A DNA stretch of 64,000 bases from positions 1 through 64,000 of the forward strand of contig CAJBBX010000012.1 in NCBI GenBank assembly GCA_903951425.1, written 5' to 3'. Positions 1 through 13,933 of the stretch are shown here, one piece after another (position 1 is the stretch's first letter; the number at the start of each line of letters is the position of its first letter). A program made the translations under genes and the position numbers. This DNA is from an uncultured Chthonomonas sp. (lineage in GTDB: Bacteria; Armatimonadota; Chthonomonadetes; Chthonomonadales; CAJBBX01). The notes under the pieces are model-generated. The model had not been told where the DNA came from. It was given only the letters and a program-made list of their open reading frames with translations, and made no database searches.

Positions 1-1
1 C

Positions 2-1219
2 CCGAATGCACGCAGTTTCCCGAAGCTCGGGTGCGCGGAGCGTATCGTGCTGGCGCGCATCACCGAGGTGTGGGTCGGCATAGAAGATCCAGATCCCACC
101 GTCGATCGAAAGGGCATCAAGCACCTGCAGGACAATGGGATCGATGTCCACATGTTCGATCGCGACCTGCAGGAGATGATCTCAGATGAGAACACGGCCT
201 TTATGGCCCAGGCCATGGCGCGGGCCTCTGCTGACGATGGGCAGCGCGAGGTCACGCTGTCGCCGCTCGAGGAAGCGGCTGGATCGGTCGATCTGAGCGA
301 CCTGTCGGACGAAGCGCTCCAGGCATTCTGCACACGCGCGGACATCGCTCATGCGGTCGGCTCTTCGGAGTTCGTGAGGCGCCTTGCCCATATGGGCCTG
401 CTGACGCAGGATCGGGGGACGTACCGACCCACCGGTTTCGGCGTCGTCCTGTTCGGCCGTGAGCCACGCGTCACGATGCCCCAGACGGGTCTGCTCGCTA
501 CCATACGCTACGATGATGGTACCGAGGAGCCCATGGCATTCGAGGGGCCGCAGGTACTGGCGCCGGAGGCGATCCTTGGGTGGCTGCGCGCGAAGCTCCC
601 AAACCCGACCGTTCGCTCGGAAGCGCGGCGGCGCGAATCGAACGCCGCCGTGTTCGAGATACTGCGCGAGGCGGTAGTGAATGCGCTGGTCCATCGCGAT
701 TACGGCATACTCGGGGCGAAGTGCCAGTTGACGATCACACCCAACGAGTTTGTGGTCCGCAGCCCAGGCTCGCCGGTTCCGCCGATCACGCTTCAGCAAA
801 TGCAGGCATTTGGAGCTCCGATGCTTTCGCGAAATCCCGTGCTCCACTACGTGTTCGCGCAGATGGACCTTGCCGAGGAGCGGGGGTTAGGGCTCCGCTC
901 CATCGCCAAGTGCGCCGAGCAGGCGGGTCTGCCACGCCCGAGATATGAGTTCGACGCCCCGTATCTCGTCCTGACGGTCTTTCGCTCCCGCGCAGCGGCT
1001 ACTGCGTCGCTTCCCGATGATGCACAGGCGGCGCTCTCTGAGTCCATGCGTCCGGGTTGGGAATGGCTGTCAAGCAACGTGCGGGCGACATCGACACAGT
1101 ACGCCGAGGCGATGGGCGTCGACCAGCGCACCGCGCGCCGCCACCTCGAGGCGCTGATGGCGCTGGGTCTGGTTACCAAAGTCGGCAAGACGCGCGGTGC
1201 ACGGTACGAGGTCAGGTGA
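2..1219 (+). CDS. RibD-like deaminase / GHKL ATPase fusion, 5' end outside the window
   Basis: The frame is open to the left edge, so the true start lies outside the window; the first in-frame GTG is at 47. Numbering from base 2, residues 1-70 resemble the tail of RibD/CMP-deaminase domains: a Cys at residue 11 (GCAERIV) sits where the second zinc Cys falls, followed by VWVGIEDPDP and GIKHLQDNGIDV. Residues ~150-335 match the RecG-C-terminal-like GHKL ATPase family (HATPase_c_4): EAVVNALVHRDY at 223-234 is the N-box with Asn227, and RGLGL is a glycine loop. The last ~60 residues form a winged helix (RTARRHLEALMALGLV). It probably couples nucleotide or base sensing to ATP binding and DNA binding; that is inferred. 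The next gene is a DNA methyltransferase 273 bp downstream on the same strand, so a defence or regulatory role is plausible. Confidence 0.7.
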   Translation, partial: PNARSFPKLGCAERIVLARITEVWVGIEDPDPTVDRKGIKHLQDNGIDVHMFDRDLQEMISDENTAFMAQAMARASADDGQREVTLSPLEEAAGSVDLSDLSDEALQAFCTRADIAHAVGSSEFVRRLAHMGLLTQDRGTYRPTGFGVVLFGREPRVTMPQTGLLATIRYDDGTEEPMAFEGPQVLAPEAILGWLRAKLPNPTVRSEARRRESNAAVFEILREAVVNALVHRDYGILGAKCQLTITPNEFVVRSPGSPVPPITLQQMQAFGAPMLSRNPVLHYVFAQMDLAEERGLGLRSIAKCAEQAGLPRPRYEFDAPYLVLTVFRSRAAATASLPDDAQAALSESMRPGWEWLSSNVRATSTQYAEAMGVDQRTARRHLEALMALGLVTKVGKTRGARYEVR

Positions 1220-1258
1220 TATGGCACTCACCGCGGCTTGCCCCGAATCCGGGTGCGA

Positions 1259-1380
1259 ATCCGGACATTGTGTCCGGATGCCACATCGCCAGCGCGCTCG
1301 AACCGAGAATCCGGACATTGTGCCGGACACTATGCCCGGATTCGGGTGCGCTGCCCGGGGCTCGACACGAATCCGGACAC
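1259..1380. repeat. Cluster of TCCGGA-centred inverted and direct repeats
   Basis: The 273-bp gap between the deaminase/ATPase gene and the methyltransferase gene holds no ORF of note. It carries a perfect 9-bp inverted repeat ATCCGGACA-TTG-TGTCCGGAT at 1259-1279. The same GAATCCGGACA word recurs at 1307 and 1369, and an inverted arm CCGGATTC lies at 1336-1343. TCCGGA occurs four times in about 120 bp. It may be an operator for the winged-helix protein upstream, a methylation-sensitive control site, or a repeat scar. No -10/-35 pair is convincing. Confidence 0.5.
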
Positions 1381-1492
1381 TGCGGCGCGAGGGTGATACG
1401 CCTCAGGGACGCCTCAGATGACCCAAGCCGCGGCTCGTCCAACGTGGTCAGTCGATGCGACCCATCCTGTTCATCCTGTCTAGGAAAGCGAT

Positions 1493-4303
1493 ATGGCAAA
1501 GACACCGAGCAGCAAGACCGTTGAGGTGCTGAAGCATACCGAGGCTTCGCGGCGGAACATCCCTACCGCTGAGTACCAGACCGTGCTGAACAAGGAGGAC
1601 GAGGCGTCGGTTCGCGTCGCTTACGAGCGGCGCAACCGCGACCTGGACCCGCAGCTCGTCTGGCGCGGCAAGGATGAGCAGGACTGGAGCGACCTCGTCG
1701 TCCACGCGCCGCCGCTCTACATCCAGGAGAAGGTGCACCCCAAGGTCCTCGTCGACGACCTGCTGCGGCAGACGCGCGAAGGCAAGCCCACCGACCCTCA
1801 ACTCAACCTGTTCGACGACTTCAACGGCATGCCGGAGGGCGCCGACCGGACCGACTTCTACCACCACGACCAGAACTGGACCAACCGCATGATCCTGGGC
1901 GACAGCCTGCAGGTCATGGCCAGTCTGGCGGAGCGCGAGGGCCTGCGCGGGAAGGTGCAGTGCATCTACATCGACCCGCCCTACGGCATCAAGTTCAACA
2001 GCAACTTCCAGTGGAGCACCACCAGCCGCGACGTCAAGGACGGTAACGCCGACCACATCACTCGGGAGCCCGAGCAGGTGAGAGCCTTCCGGGACACGTG
2101 GCGCGACGGCGTCCACAGCTACCTAACGTACCTGCGTGACCGGCTGACGGTCGCCCGAGACCTGCTCACCGAATCTGGGTCGCTGATCGTTCAGATTGGG
2201 CAGGACAACTGCCACTTGATTAGGGCGCTCCTCGACGAGGTGTTTGGCTCCGGCAACTTCATCGCACAAGTGGTGTTCTCGAAGACCGCAAGTGCTACGT
2301 CGGAGTATCTCGCAGGAACGTATGACCTCCTACTGCTATACGCGCGCTCTCGGGCGCACCTGAAGTACCGTCAGCCTCTGAACCGAAAGGAGATCGGCGG
2401 CGCAGGGGGCGGCGCGTACAAGCGGCTCCGGCTTCCGCACCTCTCGGAGCGACCACTTACGCCCGACGAGCTTAGTGGGCAGCAGAGGATACCCAGCGAC
2501 TGCCGGGTGTTCCGGATCGACAACCTGACGAGCCAGAGCGTTGGGCGCGACAAGGGCGAGGGTGCTGCCTCATGGTTTCCTGTCGCCTACGAGGGACAGG
2601 TGTTCCGGCCATCGGAGAAAGTCCGTTGGAAGACCAATGAGCAAGGCATGGCCCGCCTCGGGAAGGCGTCTCGCCTGAGTGCGACCAGCCAAGGCCTGTA
2701 CTACGTGCGCTACTTCGCCGACTTCGCCGCGTTCGAGGAAGACAACGTCTGGTCGGATACGGGTATCGCGGGCTTCGCGTCGGAGAAACGGTACGTGGTC
2801 GAGACCGCGGAGAAGGTAGTCCAACGCTGCATCCTGATGACCACAGACCCCGGCGACCTCGTCCTTGACCCCACGTGTGGCTCCGGTACCACCGCGTACG
2901 TGGCGGAGCAGTGGGGCCGACGCTGGATCACCATCGACACATCGCGCGTTGCGCTGGCCCTAGCCCGCGCCCGCGTGATGGGGGCGCGATACTCCTACTA
3001 CCTGCTAGCCGACTCCCGCGATGGCCAGCTCAAAGAGGCGGCAGTGACGCACGCCTCACCTACGTCACAGCCCGTTACCGGGAGCATCCGCCAGGGCTTC
3101 GTCTACGAGCGGGTGCTACACATAATGCTGAAAGACATCGCTGGCAACGCCGAGATCGACGTGATCTGGGAGAAGTGGCAAGAGACGCTGGAGCCGCTCC
3201 GCGAGCGGTTGGGCCGGGCCGTCGAACATGCTCCTCTTGAGGAGTGGCAGATACCTCGCGAGGCCGATGCCACATGGCCGGATGCCGCAAAGAAGCTCCA
3301 CGCTGACTGGTGGGCCGCGCGCATCGCCCGGCAGACGGAGATCGACGCGTCGATCGCGGCCAGGGCCGGGTTCGAGTACCTATACGACAAGCCCTACGAC
3401 GACAAGCGCAAAGTGCGCGTGGCCGGGCCGTTCACCGTCGAGAGTCTATCCCCTCACCGGGTTCTGGGCGTCGACGAGAACGACGAACTGATCGACCTCG
3501 TGGCGGAGAAGGGCGCCGAGTATGGCGCGGGGCAGACCTTCGTCGAGATGATCCTCGAGAACCTGAAGACCGCCGGCGTCCAGCAAGCCGACAAGCGGGA
3601 CCGAATCACGTTCACTTCGCTAGCCCCCTGGCCCGGCACGTTCATCTGCGCGGTGGGGCAATACATGGAGGGCGTCGCCGAGAAGCGCGCCGCCATCTTC
3701 ATCGGACCGGAGTTTGGCACCGTCTCTCGCCCGGACCTGGTCGAAGCAGCGCGTGAGGCGGCGGACGCGGGATTCGACGTGCTCATCTCCTGTGCGTTCA
3801 ACTACGAGGCGCACACGACGGAGTTCAACAAGCTCGGCCGCGTTCCGGTCCTCAAGGCGCGGATGAACGCCGAGCTGCACATGGCCGAGGACCTGAAGAA
3901 CACGGGCAAGGGCAACCTGTTCGTCATCTTCGGCGAGCCGGACATCGACCTGCTGCACGAGCCCGACGGCCGCGTTCGAGTGAAGGTGAACGGCGTCGAC
4001 GTCTTCCACCCCAGCACCGGCGAGGTCCGCAGCGACGGCCCGGACGGCATCGCCTGCTGGTTCATCGACACCGACTACAACGAAGAGAGCTTCTTCGTCC
4101 GCCACGCCTACTTCCTGGGCGCCAACGATCCCTACGACTCCCTGAGGCGAACGCTGAAGGCCGAGGTCAACGAAGAAGCCTGGGCCACCCTCCACAGCGA
4201 CACCTCCCGCCCCTTCGACAAACCGAAGTCCGGCCGAATCGCCGTGAAGGTCATCAACCACCTGGGGGATGAGGTGATGAAGGTGTTTAGGGTGGCAGGC
4301 TGA
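1493..4303 (+). CDS. Site-specific DNA methyltransferase, Mod-like (beta class)
   Basis: A 936-residue DNA methyltransferase, predicted to transfer a methyl group from S-adenosylmethionine to adenine N6 (or cytosine N4). The catalytic motif DPPYG is at residues 161-165. The SAM-binding motif DPTCGSGTT is at 459-467. This order (catalytic motif first) is the beta class used by type III Mod subunits. The protein is longer than classical Mod (~600-650 residues): after ~520 there is a ~400-residue extension of unknown role containing an acidic/aromatic region and TDYNEESFF near the end. ATG 1493 follows a weak AGGAAAG ribosome site. No type III Res helicase lies next to it; an OLD-type ATPase and a UvrD-like helicase follow on the same strand. 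It could modify self DNA for those effectors or be a restriction remnant. Confidence 0.85.
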   Translation: MAKTPSSKTVEVLKHTEASRRNIPTAEYQTVLNKEDEASVRVAYERRNRDLDPQLVWRGKDEQDWSDLVVHAPPLYIQEKVHPKVLVDDLLRQTREGKPTDPQLNLFDDFNGMPEGADRTDFYHHDQNWTNRMILGDSLQVMASLAEREGLRGKVQCIYIDPPYGIKFNSNFQWSTTSRDVKDGNADHITREPEQVRAFRDTWRDGVHSYLTYLRDRLTVARDLLTESGSLIVQIGQDNCHLIRALLDEVFGSGNFIAQVVFSKTASATSEYLAGTYDLLLLYARSRAHLKYRQPLNRKEIGGAGGGAYKRLRLPHLSERPLTPDELSGQQRIPSDCRVFRIDNLTSQSVGRDKGEGAASWFPVAYEGQVFRPSEKVRWKTNEQGMARLGKASRLSATSQGLYYVRYFADFAAFEEDNVWSDTGIAGFASEKRYVVETAEKVVQRCILMTTDPGDLVLDPTCGSGTTAYVAEQWGRRWITIDTSRVALALARARVMGARYSYYLLADSRDGQLKEAAVTHASPTSQPVTGSIRQGFVYERVLHIMLKDIAGNAEIDVIWEKWQETLEPLRERLGRAVEHAPLEEWQIPREADATWPDAAKKLHADWWAARIARQTEIDASIAARAGFEYLYDKPYDDKRKVRVAGPFTVESLSPHRVLGVDENDELIDLVAEKGAEYGAGQTFVEMILENLKTAGVQQADKRDRITFTSLAPWPGTFICAVGQYMEGVAEKRAAIFIGPEFGTVSRPDLVEAAREAADAGFDVLISCAFNYEAHTTEFNKLGRVPVLKARMNAELHMAEDLKNTGKGNLFVIFGEPDIDLLHEPDGRVRVKVNGVDVFHPSTGEVRSDGPDGIACWFIDTDYNEESFFVRHAYFLGANDPYDSLRRTLKAEVNEEAWATLHSDTSRPFDKPKSGRIAVKVINHLGDEVMKVFRVAG

Positions 4304-4365
4304 CCGAGCTGGAGCCCTGGGGCGTCGGCCAATTGCCGGGAATATTACAAGAGAGTGGCGTAACT

Positions 4366-6153
4366 ATGATATCACGCCTTAGTCTATCAAATTTTAAGAG
4401 CGTCGGGCACCAGGTTTACGATCTGGGTGATTTCGACCTGCTCGTGGGCGGCAATAACAGCGGCAAGAGTACGGTGCTGCAGGCATTGGCTATCTGGCAG
4501 TACTGCCTCGACGAGTTCCGCAGATCCTCGCGCAGGGGACGCACGGGCATCCAGATCGTGCTCCCGAACTTCACGGCACTGCCCGTTCCCGAGTTCAATC
4601 TCCTGTGGAAGGAGAAGACCGATCGTCACTGGCCCAACGTAGACGGACAGAAGAAGCAGGAGTATATCCTGATCCACATAGGTCTCGACTGGCGCACACA
4701 GGATGGCAAGACTGATGGGTTTGGAGTTGACCTGCGATATCACTCACCCCAGAGCATCTACGCCATTCCATCGTCGGGATGGGCCGATTTCCGGGTCAAA
4801 GAGCAGGGCGGTACGTTACCCCTTATCGCCTACGTGCCGCCGTTCTCGGGCCTAGAGCCGGCAGAGAAGTGGCTTGATCAGTCGCCGATCAGGCAACAGG
4901 TTGGCAAAGGGCAGCCCGGTAGCGTGCTTCGAAATCTCTTGCTTCGAGTTTGGCCCTCCGATTCGCACGAGTCTGATGGGCGGCCAGCCAAGCCAGGGCC
5001 CCCGCCAGACGACTGGCGCGAACTGGCCGACGCGGTTATGCGGTGGTTCTCCGTGGAGATCAAGAGGCCCCAGTATGACTCCGCCAAAGACGTGAACATC
5101 ACGGTCGAATACCAGCAAGGCGGGAAGGCGTACGACATCATTGCGGGCGGAAGTGGATTCCACCAGACCCTGACGCTCCTTGCGTTCCTATATGGTTACA
5201 GGCCAACCACAATACTCCTTGACGAGCCCGACGCACACCTGCACGTGAAATTGCAGCGCCAGATACTGGACTACTTCCAACTGCAGGCACGGAAACGCAA
5301 CACTCAGTTTGTGATCGCGACGCATGCCGAGGAACTGGTCCGCGGTGTAGCACCATCACAGATCGTGTCGCTGCTTCGCCAAGAGCCCAGTCGGGTGCAG
5401 TACACACCTGACGTTCTCCGTGCGATGTCGGACGTCTCCAACGAGGAGGTGACCCATCTGTCGACCGATCCATACATCATGTACGTTGAGGGCGAGTCCG
5501 ATGAGCGGATACTCCGGGCCTGGGCACCGAAGGTCCATGCAGAGGCAGCCATCGGTCGTGTTCGGTTCCACCGCATGCATGGCGGAAGCAAGAGCTCAAT
5601 GAAGGCAGCGGCCGACGCCCATTTCCGTGCGATATGTCAGATAGTGCCAACAGCCAAGCGGCTAATGCTGTTCGACTATGACTCCAGCGAGACGGCCTTC
5701 CACCCTGAGGCCGACAACACCGCTTTGGCTGAGTGGCGGCGCAAGAATATCGAGAACTACATGCTCGTACCTGACGCGTGGAGACGGGCGTCGCTGCGAG
5801 CCCTCCATTCGACTCCGGCTGATCTGCTCGCAACCCCTGTCCTAAACTCGATCGATAGCTGGTTCCAATCAGAGAACTTAACACTGCCTGTCGGACGGTC
5901 GTGGCAAGACGTGTCGGCCAACGTGTTCCGCGTCGTCGACGGCAAGCAAATGCTGTTTGAGAATGACGACTCTCTCTTCCACCAACTGCGGCGACACGAC
6001 CCAGCCGTAGTGCTTCCACGTGAGGACGTTGCTAGGTCCATGGAGACATCCGAGCTCCACGCGGACGTGTTGGCCGTTATGGCGAAGCTGGTTGCGCTCG
6101 TCGGCGGCCCAACTACCCGCTCGGACGAGGAAGAGCCGGGGGACACCGGGTAG
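4366..6153 (+). CDS. OLD-family ATPase with C-terminal TOPRIM nuclease domain (GajA-like)
   Basis: A 595-residue protein of the overcoming-lysogenization-defect family. ATP-binding signs: Walker A GGNNSGKST at 28-36, Walker B ILLDEP with Asp286-Glu287, and H-loop ATHAEEL with His320. The C-terminal TOPRIM domain shows VEGESDE (Glu375, Asp379) and FDYDS (Asp437, Asp439), the metal-binding acidic set of OLD nucleases. ATG 4366 is chosen because MISRLSLSNFKSV is the usual start of these proteins; an in-frame TTG at 4333 is a weaker alternative. Length and domain order fit class 1 OLD and Gabija GajA. A UvrD-like helicase starts 6 bp after the stop, the Gabija arrangement. Nucleolytic defence activity is inferred from family knowledge. 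Confidence 0.85.
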   Translation: MISRLSLSNFKSVGHQVYDLGDFDLLVGGNNSGKSTVLQALAIWQYCLDEFRRSSRRGRTGIQIVLPNFTALPVPEFNLLWKEKTDRHWPNVDGQKKQEYILIHIGLDWRTQDGKTDGFGVDLRYHSPQSIYAIPSSGWADFRVKEQGGTLPLIAYVPPFSGLEPAEKWLDQSPIRQQVGKGQPGSVLRNLLLRVWPSDSHESDGRPAKPGPPPDDWRELADAVMRWFSVEIKRPQYDSAKDVNITVEYQQGGKAYDIIAGGSGFHQTLTLLAFLYGYRPTTILLDEPDAHLHVKLQRQILDYFQLQARKRNTQFVIATHAEELVRGVAPSQIVSLLRQEPSRVQYTPDVLRAMSDVSNEEVTHLSTDPYIMYVEGESDERILRAWAPKVHAEAAIGRVRFHRMHGGSKSSMKAAADAHFRAICQIVPTAKRLMLFDYDSSETAFHPEADNTALAEWRRKNIENYMLVPDAWRRASLRALHSTPADLLATPVLNSIDSWFQSENLTLPVGRSWQDVSANVFRVVDGKQMLFENDDSLFHQLRRHDPAVVLPREDVARSMETSELHADVLAVMAKLVALVGGPTTRSDEEEPGDTG

Positions 6154-6159
6154 GCACAT

Positions 6160-8232
6160 ATGCTCCTCGCCATCTCCGACACCTTCACGGACAGCCTCGC
6201 CAAGCTCACGGGCGACGAGCAGAGGGCCGCCAAGACGACGGCCTTTGACCTGCAGGTAGACCCGTCCGGCACGAGCATGAGCTTCCACAAGCTCGACAAG
6301 GCGCGCGACAAGCGCTTCTGGTCCGTGCGGGTAAGCAGCGACCTGCGGCTGATCGTGCACCGCTCCGACACCAGCCTGCTGCTCTGCTACGTCGACCATC
6401 ACGACGACGCGTACAAGTGGGCCGAACGGCGCAAGCTGGAGAGCCACCCCACGACGGGCGCCGCCCAGTTCGTGGAGGTCTGTGAGCGAACCGAAGAGGT
6501 GTTTGTTCCCGTCTACATCGACGTGGAGCAGCCTGCTCCGCCCAAACCTCGGTTGTTCGCCCATCTCGCCGATGCCGTGATCCTGGACTACGGCGTGCCG
6601 CCGGAGTGGCTGGAGCGCATCCGGTCAGTAACTGAGGAGACTATCCTCGACACGGTGGCTCACCTGCCGTCAGAGGCGGCAGAGGCCCTGCTGCAGCTTG
6701 CCACCGGCTCCGCGCCAACGCGGACCCCGCAACCCGTGGCGGCGCCGTCCGACCCGTTCGACCACCCGGACGCACGCCGCCGATTCCGCGTCGTGAACAA
6801 CGTGGAGGAACTGGCGGCTGCGCTTGACTACCCGTGGGAGAAGTGGACGGTGTTCCTCCATCCCGCGCAGCGGGACAGTGTTGAGCGGACGTACGGCGGC
6901 CCGGCTCGCGTCTCGGGCTCCGCCGGTACCGGCAAGACGATCGTGGCGCTGCACCGTGCCGCGTTCCTGGCTCGGTCGTCGCCGGATGCCCGCATCCTGC
7001 TAACGACGTTCTCCGATGCCCTGGCCAATGCCTTGAGCAACAAGCTGCACACGCTGCTTGCCTCAGAGCCCCGCGTCGCTGAGAGGATCGAGGTGCGCTC
7101 CCTTGATGCAGTCGCTGACCGGCTCCATCGACTGATACTCGGCAAGGCCCAGCACACCGCCCCCGACACCCTCGCCGACGTCGTGCAGGCGGCTGCCGCA
7201 GCCACACCGGCCTGCACGTTCGGCGCCAACTTTGTGGTGTCGGAGTGGACCGAAGTCGTGGACGCCTGGCAACTGAGCACCTGGGACGCCTACCGCACGA
7301 TTCCCCGCCTGGGCCGCCGATCCCGGCTGACGGAGAGGCACCGAGAGGCCCTCTGGGCGGTCTTCGAGAAGGTGCGGGCCGAGCTTGCCTCTCGCGGTCT
7401 TGTCACCCGGTCGGGCATCTACGGCACCCTCGCGGCGCACTTCGCCTCCAAGCCGCCGCCGTACGATGCCGTCGTGGTAGACGAGGCTCAGGATGTGGGA
7501 GTGGCCCAACTGCGATTTCTGGCCGCCCTGGCAGCTGGACGGCCCAACGCGCTCTTCCTCGCCGGCGATCTGGGCCAGCGCATCTTCCAGAAGCCATTCT
7601 CCTGGAAGGCGCTGGGTGTCGATGTCAGAGGTCGCTCCCGCACTCTCCGGGTCAACTATCGGACCTCGCATCAGATTCGATCCCAGGCGGATCGGCTGCT
7701 GGGACCGGAGATCAGCGATATGGACGGCAACTGCGAGGAGAGGCGCGGCACCGTCTCGGTCTTCAATGGGCCTCCACCGACGGTGCAAGTGGTAGGGAGT
7801 CCCGACGACGAGACTAACGTGGTCGCCGTCTGGCTGTCGGAGCTCTGCAACGCCGGCGTCAAGCCCGATGAGGTGGGCGTGTTCGTCCGCTCCACAACCG
7901 AGCTTCCGCGCGCCAAGGCTGCAGTGGAGTTGGCCGGGTTGCCCTACACGATCCTGGACGACGACATGGAGCCCGCGCCCGGCTCGGCGACGCTCAGCAC
8001 GATGCACCTGGCGAAGGGGCTGGAGTTCAAAGCCGTGGTAGTGATGGCGTGCGACGACGACGTCCTCCCGCTTCAGTCACGCATCGCCGACGCGGCGGAC
8101 GACTCAGACCTCGAAGAGGTCTACAACACCGAGCGGCAACTCCTCTACGTCGCCTGCACCCGCGCCCGTGACCACCTGCTGGTTATCGGGGTTGCGCCCA
8201 TCTCCGAGTTCGTCGAGGACATGCGGCTCTAG
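6160..8232 (+). CDS. UvrD-like superfamily 1 helicase with RelE-like N-terminal domain (GajB-like)
   Basis: A 690-residue SF1A helicase. Motif I is GSAGTGKT at 253-260, motif II is DEAQD at 441-445, motif V lies in TMHLAKGLEFKAVVV and motif VI in YVACTRARDH near the C-terminus. Residues 1-~90 read like a RelE/ParE-fold toxin or mRNA-interferase domain (LDKARDKRFWSVRVSSDLR, then LIVHRSD and CYVDHHDDAYKWAERR), a known fusion in RelE-UvrD proteins. It begins 6 bp after the OLD gene, so the two are probably co-transcribed and translationally linked. GajB of classical Gabija is shorter (about 500 residues) and lacks the RelE-like part. It may sense nucleic-acid ends or nucleotides for the OLD nuclease; that is inferred. 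Confidence 0.85.
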   Translation: MLLAISDTFTDSLAKLTGDEQRAAKTTAFDLQVDPSGTSMSFHKLDKARDKRFWSVRVSSDLRLIVHRSDTSLLLCYVDHHDDAYKWAERRKLESHPTTGAAQFVEVCERTEEVFVPVYIDVEQPAPPKPRLFAHLADAVILDYGVPPEWLERIRSVTEETILDTVAHLPSEAAEALLQLATGSAPTRTPQPVAAPSDPFDHPDARRRFRVVNNVEELAAALDYPWEKWTVFLHPAQRDSVERTYGGPARVSGSAGTGKTIVALHRAAFLARSSPDARILLTTFSDALANALSNKLHTLLASEPRVAERIEVRSLDAVADRLHRLILGKAQHTAPDTLADVVQAAAAATPACTFGANFVVSEWTEVVDAWQLSTWDAYRTIPRLGRRSRLTERHREALWAVFEKVRAELASRGLVTRSGIYGTLAAHFASKPPPYDAVVVDEAQDVGVAQLRFLAALAAGRPNALFLAGDLGQRIFQKPFSWKALGVDVRGRSRTLRVNYRTSHQIRSQADRLLGPEISDMDGNCEERRGTVSVFNGPPPTVQVVGSPDDETNVVAVWLSELCNAGVKPDEVGVFVRSTTELPRAKAAVELAGLPYTILDDDMEPAPGSATLSTMHLAKGLEFKAVVVMACDDDVLPLQSRIADAADDSDLEEVYNTERQLLYVACTRARDHLLVIGVAPISEFVEDMRL

Positions 8233-8506: not shown

Positions 8507-9375
8507 TTACGGGCCGACCACGTTGAACGTTGTGGATGCGCTCTGCGTGTTGTACCAGCCGTCACCTGCAAAGGCGGCCGTCGCGGTGTGCGCGGCGATG
8601 GGCTCGGCGGCCGGGATGCTCCAGGTGACCGAGGCCCAGCCGTCGGCGCCCACGTTCGCGGAGCCGATGTCGGTTCCGTTTACCCGGTACGTGATGGCCT
8701 TGCCAGGCTGGATCACGTAGTCCGGCAGGCTGCGGACGTAGGCCCTCAGCGGGTGGGCTGTCCCACGCGCTCCACTGCGCACGTAGGGCCAGATGTAGAG
8801 GTCTCCCTTAGTGACGGTCAGCTTCCCTGTGTTGGCGGAGGCGTTGTGCCCCGCGTCGCCCGCGAACTCGCCGCGGATCACACGGGTACCCGAACCAGCC
8901 CCTTCGGCGACCGTGTAGCCGAACTGCACATATCCGGATGGGTTCGTGGTGGCCGAACCCAGGACCACGCCGTCCAGCTTAACGGTCATCGGCTTGCCCG
9001 GAACCACCGAGTTGCTGAGGAGGTAGAGGTAGGCCTTAAGCACCGTGTACGACTTCACCTTGGCGGTCCGGTCGACGACGTAGACCTTGGTGGCCACGGT
9101 CTGGGCCGTCAGCTTCGCGGTGCCGAACGACGCCGTGTAGGCCACATCGCCGGCGAACTCAGCCTTGATGCCCCGGAGCGCGGGACCGGCGCTGATAGTC
9201 CAGGTGAGCGCGGCCATGCCGTCGGTATCGGTTGAGGCGCTCCCGACCTCGACGCCGTCGATCAGAAACCGGACCGCTCGGCCTACCACCCAGGAGTTGT
9301 CGGTGAGGCGCTTGAGGTAGCCCTTCAGCGAAACGGGCGTGGTGATGATGCCTGCCCGATCGACCGTGTAGAGCG
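8507..9375 (-). repeat. Left copy of the shared C-terminal Ig-like module (inverted pair)
   Basis: The last ~290 residues of the BNR/Ig-like giant match the last ~290 residues of the metalloprotease at 25978-26849 on the other strand. Shared words include TVATKVYVVDRT, LYIWPYVRSG and YVRSLPDYVIQPGK, and the DNA encoding the last two is also clearly similar. The two copies therefore form a diverged inverted repeat with ~16.6 kb between them. Confidence 0.75.
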
Positions 9376-12300
9376 ATGTTCCGCCCTGCGTGATGGTCAG
9401 CGTGCCGGTACCGGCTCCGGGTTTGAGGGTGCTGTCTCCGGCGAAGGCGCCGCGTAGCTCATGCCCCCCCGCGCCGTAGGCCTCGAGGGCCATCCAGCTC
9501 TGCGCCAGGCTGCCCTCGGCGTCACTGGTCGCCTGCCCGATGCCGGTGCCGTCGAGGGTGAAGACGACGACCTTGCCCGCGAGCCGCAGGTCGTCCGAGG
9601 CCCGGCTGATCCGACCGACGATGGTGAAGAAGCTGCCGATCGGCGCCGTGACCGGGTCGATCTCGATGACCACGTCGGCCTTCGCGACCGTCAGCGACGC
9701 GATCTGGCTGTGCCCGACGTAGCAGGGCTCGCCGGCATAGGCCACCGTGTAGGTCTTCCCTCCCCAGCCCAGCGATTCAGGAATGGTGTAGGCGACGGTC
9801 GCGCGTCCGTTGCCGTCCGTGTTGTCGCGGCCTACCTCGACGCCGGCGACGCTGAACGTGATCTCCCGCTGTTGCAGAGGCATGCTGTCGCTGTGGCGCG
9901 AGAGGTCGGCCTTGAACGTGACGCTCTCGCCGAACTGCCCCGAGACGGCAAGCGGGTTCAGCGTGGTATCGCAGCGCAACACGCGGAGGACGCCCGCGCC
10001 CTCGGATGCGGCGTAGCTTGCATCGCCCTCGAACAGAGCCTTCAGCGGGTAGTCGCCGGGAGCCAACTCGCCGAGCTTGGTCTGGATGCTTACGGAGCCA
10101 TTCTCGTTGCTGACCCCGCCTCCGATCATGTCACCGTTGAGCCAGATCGATACGGCGCGGCCGACGATGGCCGCCGAGTCGGGCTGGCGCGTCAGGCCGG
10201 CGCTCAGGGTCACCAGTTGCGTGGCCGCCGCGGTGGCGCCAGACATACGGGCCACGGAGACGCCTTGCTCAATGTTGAGGCTGTCGATGTCCTCTTTCGG
10301 TGCGTACGATGTATCGCCGGCGAACTCGGCGTACAGGGCGTGAGCGGTGACTGCCGTGGTCTCGGGTATCCGATAGACCAAGTAGGCGTCGCCCGCGGCA
10401 TTGGTGACCGCCGTGCCGATCGCGTCATGCGCGTCCCGGCTGAACGTGATCGTTTTCCCTGAGACGGCGGCGCCCGTGTACCAGTTTGTCATCCGCGCGT
10501 GGAGGGTCACCTGGTAGCCGATCTTCCCGGTGGCGCCGTCGAGAGTGAGACGCACCCTTGTCTGCGCTATCGTGAAGGGTGCGCTGTAGTCAAGGGTAGC
10601 CGGTGCGGACTCGCTGCTCACCTGCACGGCATACCCGACATTGGGCGTAATGTCGGACGGGAGCGTCCAGGAGTAGGAGCCGGCGCCACCCGTGCCGACG
10701 GAGACGCCGGAGGCGATGGTCCGGACATAGGAGCCCAACCGATAGAGCCTCAGGCGCACCGTCGTCCCGACGGCTCCCGAGTACTGCCACTCGATGGTCT
10801 GGGTGGTCAGGAGCGGCCAACTCGCGCCGGCGCCCGGCTCGATAACCTTGATGGCGGTCTGCGCGACGACGCTGAACTCCGCACCGGTGTCGGTGCGCGA
10901 GGTCTTAGACTCGTCGGTGACCTTCACCTGATAGTGGGTACTGGGGCTTAGCGTCGGTGGCACGACCCAGGCGTAGCTGCCGGCGCCGGCGGACCCAACT
11001 GAAACCCCTGTGGCGATCGTCCTGAGGGTGTTGCCGTTGTGCAGGAGTTCGAGCTTAACCTTGGAGCCCGGCGTGCCCTTGTAGGTCCACGCGATCGTCT
11101 TGGACGAGCCCTGCTCCCAAGCATCGCCGGCGCCTGGCTCGGTCAGCGTGAAGATCGGAGATGGGGTGATGGTGAAGTCGGCATCCGTGACGTCCTCGTA
11201 GCCCCCGATGGTCGTGCCGACCCAGATGCGGTTGGTCGTGCCCGTTGGGATATCGGCTGCGATGGTCCAATCGAATGTGCCCACACCGCCTGCCGGAGCT
11301 GCTACATTGTCGCCGATCTGCCGGTACTTGGTCCCGTTGCGCATGAGCCAGATGTCCACCAGACCCGCCGAACCCGCGAGCTTCCAACTGACCGTGACGG
11401 TGTCGCCGCGCTCGTACGCGCCGAAGCCGTTCGGCGCCGTTGCCAGCAGGCCGGAACTGCGAAGGGGCATCCGCCAGATACCGCGGCCCATGGTGCCGGC
11501 GTAGAGCATCCTTGTGTTCTTGCCGACCTGCAGGTCGGAGATCATCGTGTTGGGCAGGCCCAGCGGCCCACCGGCGTTCGACCAGTTGGCCCCTCCGTCC
11601 AGCGTCGCGAAGACGCCGACGTCGCCGGCCACGTAGTAGGAGCTCGCGGGATCGAACGGATCAAACACCACGGACACGTAGGCAATCCCGGGAAGGGCTG
11701 TCGCGCCCGAACCGTCGAGGCATGTGAAGGCCGGGGCTACGCCCCTGGTATCGTCGCATCGATACACATGCCCAGGGTCAACTCCGCCCACCGTGAGCAG
11801 TATGCGGTAAGGGTCGGTGGGGTCCACAGCGATATCTGTGATGGAGCGGCTCGGCACGCCGTCTCCAGCGCGGTCCAGCCTGGTCCAGGTCGCGCCGGCG
11901 GAGCCGCTGACCCAGATCGCGCCGCTGCCGGAGCCGACGTAGATCACCGCCGAGTTGGTCGGAGCCACCGCCAGAGCGCTGATGGAGCCGCTAGGCGCCA
12001 GTTCGACGCTGCCAAGGCGCGCGTTCCAAGCGCCCGTCGTGCGGTCATAGCGCCACAGGTAGTTGGTGCCCATGTAGAGGTAGTTCGCGTTGTTGGGGTC
12101 CGTGGCGATGGGCGTGACCATGGCGAGCCTGTCGGCCGCCAGGGGAGGGCTGATGTAGCTCCACCTGTCCCACGGAGCAGCCACCGACATGTCGATCGGG
12201 CCAAAGAAACCTCCGGCGTAACGGATGTCGCCATTCGCTTCCGAGATGGCGGGCATGCCCGTGTCGCCGCCCTGACGCGTGTACCAGCCTGCCGGGTTAC

Positions 12301-13933
12301 CCGACCGGACCACGGTGCCGTTGTCCTGTGAGCCGGCCATGGCGGTATCCGGGTCATCGGGATGCACGGCTATCCGATAGAACTGGCCGATCCCCAGGCC
12401 GGCGTTCAGGGAAGCGAAGGTGCAGGCGCCCGTGTCGGGGTCATAGACGCCACGATAGACGCCGCCATCATTGGTGACGAGCATCTCAAAGGGGTTGTTG
12501 GGGTCACGGTCCACGTTGTGGTAATCGACGTGGACGGGTCCGCCCGGACCGTATGACACCTCGCCCCACTGATCGTCGCCGTTCCGGCTGACGAAGAGGT
12601 CCACCAACCCGATGAAGACCACGTCGCGTCGGGCGGCGCCGCTGCCTCGGCTCATGACGCCGATGGCCATATCGCCGCCGTACTGATGCCACGCACCCTC
12701 GTACGTCGTGCCCAGCGCCCCGGTGATATCGACCCAGGCTCCGTCATCCCCTCCCGCGTCGTTGCGCCAGACCTTCGTGTCGCGGCCACAGAAGAGGTAG
12801 ACCGTATCCGTTCCCACCGGTGAGCAGGCAAGCTGCAGGCCATTCTGGTAGTCCCAATCGGCGCCGGACTTGCTGCTGAGCGGCGGCGAGAGCTGCTGCC
12901 ACGTCGCGCCTTCGTCATCGGACCGGTAGAGGACCCCATCGTACTGCTCGCCGATGGCGTAGTACCGCCGATGCCCGTTGGCTCGCACAGGTGAGTAGAC
13001 GATGCTCTGGTAGCGGCCGGTGTTCGGTAGAAGCTCGGTCCAACTGGTTCCGGCATCGGCAGAGCGATAGATGCTGCCGGGCGCCTCGCCACCACCCGTC
13101 CCGACCAACACGATGTCCGGGTTCTCCGGATCGATGACGATCTTGCGGACGCCCTCGTCAGGGAAGCCGGGCGGGCTCTTGTCGGACCAGGTGTTGCCGC
13201 CGTCCAGGGACCGCATGATGCGGCACGGCGTCGCGTAGCCGACCCGCCACGAACCGGTGCCGGCGTAGACGATGTGCGGCCGTGCCGGGTCCACGGCCAC
13301 GCATGGCACGGCGAGCGTGGACCACTGGTCGCTCAGGGCACGCCAGGTGACGCCGTAGTCGGCCGTCTTCCAGACGCCGCCCTCAGCCGCGCCGATGTAG
13401 TAGGTGCCGGGGTTGCTGCGGTCATACGCCGCACTGAGAACGCACCCGGCCGTGGGACCAACGCCCATGTAGCCTGTCGAGTTCGTCTGCCAGTTGGTCG
13501 GGCCGAGATACTGCCACCCGGAACCCAAGGCCTGGGTACGGACGCCGCCGTCGGCTCCCGGCCGAGGCATCCGAGGCATCGTAGATCGGTGCTTGATCGC
13601 CCTGGGATGGGCGCTCGGGTCGAGCCGCCCGTTCTCATCAACGCGCGGCTCAAAGAAGGCCTGTAGCCCCTCCCAGTACCCGAGGCCCTTGGACGGCGCC
13701 CCGGAAGCCTTCCTCTTGCGCGCCTCGGCCAGAAAGCTCCGAAGGGCCGGCAACGAGTAGGCATCCCTCGGCCGCGGCGGCGCGGGAGGCCTCACAGGTA
13801 GCGCCCTGAGGGCACGGTGCAGCCCCACGAGGGCGGCCGCAGATTGCTGCGCATCTGACCTGGGGCCAGGCACGACAAGAGTGGAGAGGGCAATGGCGAC
13901 TGCGCCATACGAGACGGCTCGACGTTGTAGCAT
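8507..13933 (-). CDS. Giant secreted protein: BNR propeller, Kre9-like repeats and Ig-like repeats
   Basis: An 1808-residue protein with an N-terminal signal peptide (hydrophobic stretch at ~10-22, probable cleavage after SDAQ). Residues ~140-830 form a BNR/sortilin-type beta-propeller with repeated blades of the kind IYRSADAGTSWTEL and VDPTDPYRILLTVGG. Three copies of a Ser-Thr-rich/Kre9-like beta domain follow (~830-1120), each with TISW/TIAWTYKG-type and V..GAGSYAW cores. About seven bacterial Ig-like domains (FAGD.AY...SFG pattern) fill 1120-1808. The last ~290 residues are shared with the metalloprotease gene ending at 26849 and may be a surface-sorting or attachment module. ATG 13931-13933 follows CGGAGTTCAGG. 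It probably binds or processes extracellular polysaccharide or adheres to surfaces; no catalytic residues can be assigned. Confidence 0.8.
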   Translation of the reverse strand: MLQRRAVSYGAVAIALSTLVVPGPRSDAQQSAAALVGLHRALRALPVRPPAPPRPRDAYSLPALRSFLAEARKRKASGAPSKGLGYWEGLQAFFEPRVDENGRLDPSAHPRAIKHRSTMPRMPRPGADGGVRTQALGSGWQYLGPTNWQTNSTGYMGVGPTAGCVLSAAYDRSNPGTYYIGAAEGGVWKTADYGVTWRALSDQWSTLAVPCVAVDPARPHIVYAGTGSWRVGYATPCRIMRSLDGGNTWSDKSPPGFPDEGVRKIVIDPENPDIVLVGTGGGEAPGSIYRSADAGTSWTELLPNTGRYQSIVYSPVRANGHRRYYAIGEQYDGVLYRSDDEGATWQQLSPPLSSKSGADWDYQNGLQLACSPVGTDTVYLFCGRDTKVWRNDAGGDDGAWVDITGALGTTYEGAWHQYGGDMAIGVMSRGSGAARRDVVFIGLVDLFVSRNGDDQWGEVSYGPGGPVHVDYHNVDRDPNNPFEMLVTNDGGVYRGVYDPDTGACTFASLNAGLGIGQFYRIAVHPDDPDTAMAGSQDNGTVVRSGNPAGWYTRQGGDTGMPAISEANGDIRYAGGFFGPIDMSVAAPWDRWSYISPPLAADRLAMVTPIATDPNNANYLYMGTNYLWRYDRTTGAWNARLGSVELAPSGSISALAVAPTNSAVIYVGSGSGAIWVSGSAGATWTRLDRAGDGVPSRSITDIAVDPTDPYRILLTVGGVDPGHVYRCDDTRGVAPAFTCLDGSGATALPGIAYVSVVFDPFDPASSYYVAGDVGVFATLDGGANWSNAGGPLGLPNTMISDLQVGKNTRMLYAGTMGRGIWRMPLRSSGLLATAPNGFGAYERGDTVTVSWKLAGSAGLVDIWLMRNGTKYRQIGDNVAAPAGGVGTFDWTIAADIPTGTTNRIWVGTTIGGYEDVTDADFTITPSPIFTLTEPGAGDAWEQGSSKTIAWTYKGTPGSKVKLELLHNGNTLRTIATGVSVGSAGAGSYAWVVPPTLSPSTHYQVKVTDESKTSRTDTGAEFSVVAQTAIKVIEPGAGASWPLLTTQTIEWQYSGAVGTTVRLRLYRLGSYVRTIASGVSVGTGGAGSYSWTLPSDITPNVGYAVQVSSESAPATLDYSAPFTIAQTRVRLTLDGATGKIGYQVTLHARMTNWYTGAAVSGKTITFSRDAHDAIGTAVTNAAGDAYLVYRIPETTAVTAHALYAEFAGDTSYAPKEDIDSLNIEQGVSVARMSGATAAATQLVTLSAGLTRQPDSAAIVGRAVSIWLNGDMIGGGVSNENGSVSIQTKLGELAPGDYPLKALFEGDASYAASEGAGVLRVLRCDTTLNPLAVSGQFGESVTFKADLSRHSDSMPLQQREITFSVAGVEVGRDNTDGNGRATVAYTIPESLGWGGKTYTVAYAGEPCYVGHSQIASLTVAKADVVIEIDPVTAPIGSFFTIVGRISRASDDLRLAGKVVVFTLDGTGIGQATSDAEGSLAQSWMALEAYGAGGHELRGAFAGDSTLKPGAGTGTLTITQGGTSLYTVDRAGIITTPVSLKGYLKRLTDNSWVVGRAVRFLIDGVEVGSASTDTDGMAALTWTISAGPALRGIKAEFAGDVAYTASFGTAKLTAQTVATKVYVVDRTAKVKSYTVLKAYLYLLSNSVVPGKPMTVKLDGVVLGSATTNPSGYVQFGYTVAEGAGSGTRVIRGEFAGDAGHNASANTGKLTVTKGDLYIWPYVRSGARGTAHPLRAYVRSLPDYVIQPGKAITYRVNGTDIGSANVGADGWASVTWSIPAAEPIAAHTATAAFAGDGWYNTQSASTTFNVVGP

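Follow-up and report, generated by a model that had tools for sequence, protein, structure and literature searches.

In the accessible part of its description, ARMADA type II includes a RelE-UvrD fusion, ArmD, and pairs it with BrxHII-, PglX- and YprA-like proteins (ArmA, ArmB and ArmC) (PMC12458937). PrrC, according to the accessible sections of another report, sits inside the type IC locus ecoprrI (PMC12707154). Here we analyzed a 64,000-nucleotide stretch of DNA (the window; bases 1-64000 of contig C12, CAJBBX010000012.1) from an uncultured Chthonomonas sp., whose genome assembly comprises 6.08 Mb in 188 contigs. At its left edge lie four genes that an initial annotation had taken as a defense cassette without a Res subunit, in which an OLD-type ATPase and a UvrD-type helicase form a Gabija-like effector pair. 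The observation is real but was misread: instead of a Gabija-like system lacking Res, the genes represent one case of a widespread type III restriction-modification (R-M) chassis that carries cargo slots. We consider it probable that the locus is a conserved type III R-M operon with a core of a BPTD_3080-family Res, a large Mod and a RelE-UvrD helicase, with two cargo slots and with the roles for these parts proposed below. At the sequence level, the core order is conserved across phyla, the predicted catalytic motifs are kept, and the slots differ between loci, several of them holding predicted members of known defense systems. We found no published description of a Res-Mod-UvrD core with cargo slots, most subscription papers being beyond the reach of our search.

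The four open reading frames (ORFs) are present on the plus strand as claimed, at 2-1219, which runs off the left edge of the window, 1493-4303, 4333-6153 and 6160-8232. The next large ORF past 8232, at 8507-13933, is on the opposite strand, and the unit is therefore taken to end at 8232. Pfam bears out the GHKL, methyltransferase, AAA and UvrD signatures that had been noted, whereas the winged helix-turn-helix (wHTH) and deaminase signals are weak, the RelE signal is below its cut-off, and the TOPRIM motifs were read by eye. The window begins at a contig end, and its positions 1..81 overlap the end of contig C103, with 80/81 bases identical, one mismatch and reading frames in agreement. In the direction of the window, C103 first holds a complete Res gene (C103:344-3400, minus strand of C103, outside the window; 1018 amino acids) and then the true start of the deaminase gene, which overlaps the Res stop and encodes the HAE and EPC...C motifs. 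An orthologue of the deaminase protein, L007, matches C103 over residues 1-115 and the window from residue 92 on. Since C103 holds the deaminase start, the frames agree and L007 spans both contigs, the first window ORF is only the 3′ part of its gene. Across this overlap, the predicted operon order is Res, deaminase-GHKL-wHTH, Mod, OLD and RelE-UvrD, and the apparent lack of Res is, on the same join, a contig-edge artefact. A Res-free Mod system was rejected because Res adjoins the window on C103. The initial annotation had also held that a Res gene to the left would make this an ordinary type III locus with chance neighbors; the Res gene is there, but the neighbors are not chance.

That the genes belong together as a defense cassette is supported by the wide recurrence of the order Res-Mod-UvrD. 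We scanned a genome collection with an alignment of UvrD as bait and took the best 80 of at least 546 UvrD relatives, at 59-64% identity. These 80 loci come from at least 12 phylum-level groups, including Chloroflexi, Proteobacteria (with Deltaproteobacteria), Acidobacteria, Nitrospirae, Nitrospinota, Firmicutes, Methylomirabilis, Planctomycetes, Verrucomicrobia, KSB1, Elusimicrobia, Latescibacterota and Aminicenantes, as assigned from record titles and partly by recall; the title Klebsiella pneumoniae given to one metagenome-assembled genome (L192) seems to be wrong. Mod lies upstream of UvrD in 66/80 loci, and in 54/60 of those where at least 3 kb upstream is visible, while Res precedes Mod in 38/41 loci in which the mod start can be seen. 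A check of co-occurrence across genomes thus upholds a Res-Mod-UvrD order conserved across phyla; the OLD and deaminase genes vary.

Within the phylum of the host, UvrD is found at E <= 1e-20 in 18/291 genomes and at 55% identity or more in 5 of those 18 (G000, G028, G029, G074 and G150). In G028, which belongs to the same genus, Res and the first part of Mod are adjacent on one contig, and the Mod end, OLD and UvrD follow in order on another. The order in G150 is Res, Mod, two small genes and UvrD; in G074, Res and the Mod start lie at the end of one contig and UvrD is on a different one; and G029 keeps UvrD plus a 23-residue match to the Mod end. Res and Mod of G031 are separated by an AlbA_2-GHKL gene. 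UvrD stands directly behind Mod in at least five of seven plasmid records with a Mod at 60% identity or more, once across the record start, as judged from 40 of 44 UvrD matches that do not include two Methylibium records. The annotation of a Gemmobacter fulvus plasmid gives the order Res, small gene, Mod, small gene and “3'-5' exonuclease”. Among 44 loci from IMG/VR, on contigs labelled viral, 19 have UvrD at 55-61% identity, with Mod upstream in 16/19 (L200-L218). A distant relative (L107; G219:C11, 4508-14620) carries Res, a 23S-rRNA-IVP-like gene, Mod, an Hsp70-like gene, a UvrD-like gene of 397 amino acids and a copy of the mod end.

Mod (1493..4303, plus strand; 936 amino acids) is a beta-class type III methyltransferase that matches the PADLOC profile MTase_III (PDLC03632) at 1492 bits and Pfam N6_N4_Mtase at 104 bits. 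Across 40 sequences, its conservation is 0.34-0.57 at residues 251-450 (2243..2842, plus strand) versus 0.68-0.97 elsewhere, and this variable part is the presumed target-recognition region. The DPPY motif is kept in 40/40 sequences and the S-adenosylmethionine-binding motif DPTCGSGTT in 38-40 of 40 at each position. Res matches NCBIfam NF046055, “BPTD_3080 family restriction endonuclease”, at 1363 bits (cut-off 800). Its motifs GAGKT (GxGKT), DEAH (DExH), PDF and ExKG are kept in 27-30 of 30 sequences per position, the x positions varying, and the PD of PDF in 29-30 of 30. A search of PDB with Res gave no match at E 0.01. Judged by its sequence, the locus has the attributes of a type III R-M system: the Mod motifs, the motor and PD-ExK motifs of Res, and a shared operon, here across the C103-C12 overlap and elsewhere with Res upstream as counted above. 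Res, Mod and UvrD have correlated pairwise identities (r 0.42-0.55, with 0/2000 permutations as high) in 29 rows, namely 28 loci and the window, in which each protein was matched over more than 88% of its length; this correlation stems in part from shared descent. The same genome holds a second type III-like locus (L005, contig C102, 506-9505), in which a TAG divides Mod into two ORFs (42-43% identity to the window Mod); it shares its direction with genes for an HD-domain protein, an M78/IrrE-like peptidase and a Res (33%), and once more there are genes between Mod and Res.

The third core gene (6160..8232, plus strand; 690 amino acids) encodes the RelE-UvrD helicase, which matches Pfam UvrD at 57 bits. 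The Walker lysine and the DE.QD motif are kept in 81/81 sequences, and a structure model (predicted local distance difference test, pLDDT, 70.7) matches UvrD/PcrA folds. The N-terminal RelE-like part (residues 1-105; 6160..6474, plus strand) is strongly conserved. Its HigB/RelE-like signal of 16.5 bits is below the cut-off of 27, and the strand-helix-helix-strands order in the model fits the known topology of RelE. A PDB profile search with this part returned nothing credible. A phage collection searched with UvrD gave no match at E 1e-30, and a DNA search of E. coli genomes with one UvrD relative gave none at E 1e-5, a search that distant proteins would escape. UvrD relatives on E. coli plasmids are 32% identical, one of them behind a large DEAD/DEAH helicase. 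Two further relatives stand beside genes other than Res-Mod: one at 39% identity beside two UvrD-PDDEXK proteins (L102; G058:C16, 1086-9758), and one at 51% on a Qipengyuania plasmid beside a RecB-like nuclease and a DUF4011 protein (L196, 7787-19757). This helicase therefore has other partners. Together with ArmD, the E. coli plasmid relatives suggest that helicases of this type work in different kinds of defense operon.

As read from these comparisons, the predicted constant part of the locus is Res-Mod-UvrD, and the variable parts are slot 1, between Res and Mod, and slot 2, between Mod and UvrD. Slot 1 exceeds 300 nt in 22/38 loci and slot 2 in 56/66, and both are empty in 4/38. Slot ORFs of at least 100 amino acids run 144 in the sense of the operon and 5 against it (unweighted count). 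A homologue in another locus exists for 82/164 slot ORFs versus 23/293 flank ORFs (Fisher 5e-24), where slot ORFs were first called with plus-strand weighting and a 60-amino-acid minimum and flank ORFs unweighted with a 100-amino-acid minimum. Since slot ORFs recur between loci far more than flank ORFs, the unit has borders.

To name the cargo, 39/164 slot ORFs were scanned with Pfam, and 9/39 were without a match at E 0.001; NCBIfam was applied to seven and PADLOC to ten, the PADLOC names mostly covering the whole protein. PADLOC names SIR2 and HerA in L119 (clustering with L122 and L182), Dsr1 in L133 (with L151), IetA and IetS of IetAS in L135 (with L181 and L193), LmuB of Lamassu in L121 (with L136), where the neighbors match ABC-3C parts in Pfam, and PD-Lambda-5_A in L125 (with L138), beside a D12 methyltransferase. 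Pfam adds GmrSD domains in L147, L145 and L176, RhuM, a PIN-domain gene, and KAP and SMC-like ATPases, and sub-threshold NCBIfam matches point to antiviral reverse transcriptases (L144) and PglX (L127). Three small genes at 761-2441 of L126, for which Pfam gave no match and PADLOC one weak match, make up a slot-2 unit that recurs; it is also found in L154, with parts in L123, L183, L185, L186 and L187, and is a candidate defense module.

Several loci bear signs of cargo exchange. An extra copy of the uvrD 5′ end, 65-253 nt long, lies upstream in 8/80 loci, beginning at the first base in 6/8 and at base 6-7 in 2/8, and some loci keep such copies beside stacked cargo. The same test gave 0/80 for the uvrD middle (Fisher 0.007 against the 5′ end), 1/80 for the uvrD 3′ end, 0/41 for the mod 5′ end, 0/38 for the Res 3′ end and 1/35 for the Res middle. 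In L129, a uvrD 5′-end fragment runs directly into a mod 3′-end fragment, as if two mod-cargo-uvrD units had recombined, and in G219 (L107) 73 bases of the mod end are repeated behind the cargo at 96% identity. The window itself has no extra uvrD or mod end repeat. Core similarity in the 18 pairs of loci with a common cargo cluster is barely higher than in pairs overall (Mod 0.710 versus 0.701, UvrD 0.709 versus 0.686), which would be expected of cargo that moves independently. The extra uvrD 5′ ends thus suggest cargo exchange by recombination.

The slot-1 cargo of the window is the deaminase-GHKL-wHTH gene (3′ part at 2..1219, plus strand; first residues on C103). Its protein matches HATPase_c_4 at 56 bits, with weak wHTH and deaminase signals in Pfam, and the deaminase domain resembles RibD (67 bits, cut-off 156; 55 bits to RibD in PDB). 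The initial annotation had seen in it the sensor of the system. A fixed sensor is not supported, as slot 1 is empty in the same-genus genome G028 (a 12-nt gap) and the two orthologues of the protein (L007/L036 and L008/L037) lie on contigs without matches to the other window proteins; it may nevertheless act as a sensor or regulator. The 273-base gap between this gene and mod contains a candidate operator array (1242..1384, no strand assigned), with three 16-nt repeats GAATCCGGACAYTGYG and inverted copies, and a dyad CGGACATTGTGTCCG at 1262-1276. The exact 14-mer ATCCGGACATTGTG has two copies in the genome, both in this gap. Both orthologues also have repeats directly behind the gene, and the dyad SGACANNNTGTCS lies 43-212 bases behind 3/3 deaminase-GHKL genes. 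The window, L036, L037 and the retrieved portions of C103 and C102 contain no further copy, and 2.85 Mb of fetched loci contain 22. In L036 it is just ahead of a RadC-like ORF (named by eye). The three operator regions aligned poorly at the DNA level, and a scan of viral contigs with the deaminase alignment gave 30 pattern matches, none of them a relative. The common dyad behind all three genes suggests a local DNA-binding regulator.

GHKL-type genes are found in 7/22 occupied slot 1s versus 2/56 occupied slot 2s (Fisher 0.0015), and their N-terminal domains differ, being AlbA_2 in L138, L142 (two genes), L156 and G031, DUF4062 in L116, L132, L152 and L155, and a deaminase in the window. Downstream repeats exceed each of 40 shuffles in 10/27 HATPase_c_4 genes (8/25 without the two orthologues), compared with 12/289 flank genes (Fisher 1e-6) and 0/27 coding stretches; the test covered 27/30 loci, leaving out L006 (the window itself) and L027 and L030 (internal stops), and 289/293 flank genes. 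The densest array seen, in L013 (G029:C117), packs 13 copies of a unit of about 10 nt (ATGGCCGAAG or variants of it) into the 200 bases that follow a HATPase_c_4 (GHKL) ORF. Right behind the AlbA_2-GHKL gene of L109 (G031:C19, 4938-5173), 6-7 near-tandem CAAACTATCT units are followed by TTGAC-type direct repeats resembling those of L142 and L156. We infer that the slot-1 deaminase-GHKL-wHTH protein is a ligand-sensing, predicted DNA-binding regulator.

The alternative that survives best is that this protein is an effector, which would deaminate nucleotides or DNA on infection. Deaminases are known as defense effectors, as in RADAR and the dCTP deaminases, and both C103 and the orthologues preserve the HAE and EPC...C motifs of the zinc site. 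However, the protein is most similar to RibD, an enzyme that acts on small molecules, other slot-1 proteins built in the same way have AlbA_2 or DUF4062 where this one has its deaminase domain, and the dyad stands behind the gene in all three relatives. We therefore regard an effector role as unlikely, although it deserves to be kept in mind.

Weaker still is the view that this is an ordinary type III locus in a defense island, with Res and Mod as the parts that matter and UvrD and the slot genes as passengers drawn in by the clustering of defense genes. Defense genes do cluster in general, slot content varies widely, and the defense classifier was applied to slot genes and not to flanks. Against this view stand the fixed place and strand of UvrD behind Mod with high identity across phyla, the 144:5 orientation of slot ORFs and their recurrence far above that of flank ORFs, the existence of the core with both slots empty, and the correlated identities of Res, Mod and UvrD. 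We thus consider an ordinary type III locus with passengers rather improbable.

Several points weigh against the reading of a conserved operon with exchangeable cargo. Mod is missing from 14/80 loci, of whose genomes 9 have a Mod match at E <= 1e-60 somewhere and 5 have none. The loci were chosen by UvrD, so the association with Mod and Res is conditional on UvrD, and Mods at 36-56% identity, among those looked at, are mostly without UvrD. Extra uvrD ends occur in only 10% of loci, and mod 3′-end repeats (2/60) are no commoner than the mod-middle control (4/50). The dyad pattern was chosen after the sequences had been seen. Within the slots, downstream repeats exceed shuffles in only 4/12 GHKL genes (versus 3/138 other cargo genes), and in 2/10 without the window and G031, the latter being the fairer count for the 80 loci. 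Cargo naming by Pfam covers only 39/164 slot ORFs, and the putative C103-C12 join depends on the 81-base overlap with its one mismatch.

The slot-2 cargo of the window is the OLD-type ATPase with TOPRIM-like motifs (4333..6153, plus strand; TTG start as listed, with an ATG at 4366 likelier). It matches Pfam AAA_15 at 66 bits and AAA_21 at 65 bits. The TOPRIM-type motifs were read by eye in alignment A3, and since the AlphaFold model (pLDDT 42.5) is unusable, the TOPRIM part rests on that reading. OLD is found at 61-66% identity in slot 2 of G028 and L185, and a broken copy in G053 has no core genes nearby. Over the 66 loci with a visible slot 2, a close OLD precedes UvrD in 1/66, or 3/66 when distant members of the same cluster are included, and a dedicated OLD-UvrD two-gene unit was rejected on this count. 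Of the defense-profile matches, MTase_III is strong, whereas GajA profiles (at most 49 bits) and GajB (82 bits) match the window OLD and UvrD weakly and over partial stretches only. A four-gene Res-free system, in which Mod and the deaminase-ATPase decide between self and non-self for Gabija-like effectors OLD and UvrD, fits the kinds of protein present and the adjacency of OLD and UvrD in the window and G028, but is largely refuted by the Res gene, by a core that occurs without OLD or with both slots empty, and by the rarity and partial matches just given, and we hold it to be very improbable. The claimed Gabija-like pair thus falls: UvrD is constant with Res and Mod, and OLD and the deaminase protein are best read as cargo here, not as a Gabija pair with a sensor.

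We then propose a model for the conserved operon. Mod would mark host DNA, Res-Mod would cut unmarked phage DNA, and the RelE-UvrD protein may act on cut or stalled DNA. The cargo would add further defense layers; in the window, OLD in slot 2 could act as a nuclease gated by ATP. The slot-1 protein would sense a ligand and regulate mod-OLD-uvrD by binding to the dyad array that follows its own gene. Cargo may be swapped by recombination through the conserved gene ends bordering the slots. It is tempting to speculate further that the locus is a dedicated defense carrier, an R-M chassis trading whole systems through recombination at the uvrD 5′ end and neighboring gene ends, in which the GHKL-wHTH proteins of slot 1 serve as regulators whose sensor domain (AlbA_2, DUF4062 or a RibD-like deaminase) can be interchanged. 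Each would bind the repeat array that is specific to its locus and follows its own gene, and would thereby switch the defense genes downstream, the deaminase being a ligand sensor and not a metabolic enzyme. We offer this fuller picture tentatively and would put it slightly below an even chance. If true, the three-gene frame marks where to look for defense genes, and unnamed genes in slots shared with SIR2-HerA, Lamassu, Dsr1 and IetAS would be good candidates, such as the three-gene unit of L126. It would also show that whole defense systems are exchanged as cassettes within an R-M operon, and provide a candidate operator for a class of GHKL-wHTH proteins.

Compared with known systems, the locus resembles Gabija (GajA-GajB) in having an OLD-type protein beside a UvrD-type helicase, but its UvrD is bound to Res/Mod, its OLD is optional cargo, and the Gaj profiles match only partly. 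With ARMADA type II, as far as the accessible description of ArmD goes, it appears to share a RelE-UvrD type helicase; the operon here has Res, Mod, OLD and deaminase-GHKL, without proteins of the ArmA, ArmB and ArmC types described there. Like PrrC in ecoprrI, in the accessible account of that locus, it places a second-line defense gene within an R-M locus, but there it is one gene in a type I locus, and here a type III locus has two slots that take many alternative cargoes. Its closest likeness is to type III R-M systems, with a Res bearing helicase and PD-ExK motifs and a beta-class Mod with a variable middle in one operon, from which it differs by a third constant gene, RelE-UvrD, by Res standing before Mod, and by two slots of other defense genes.

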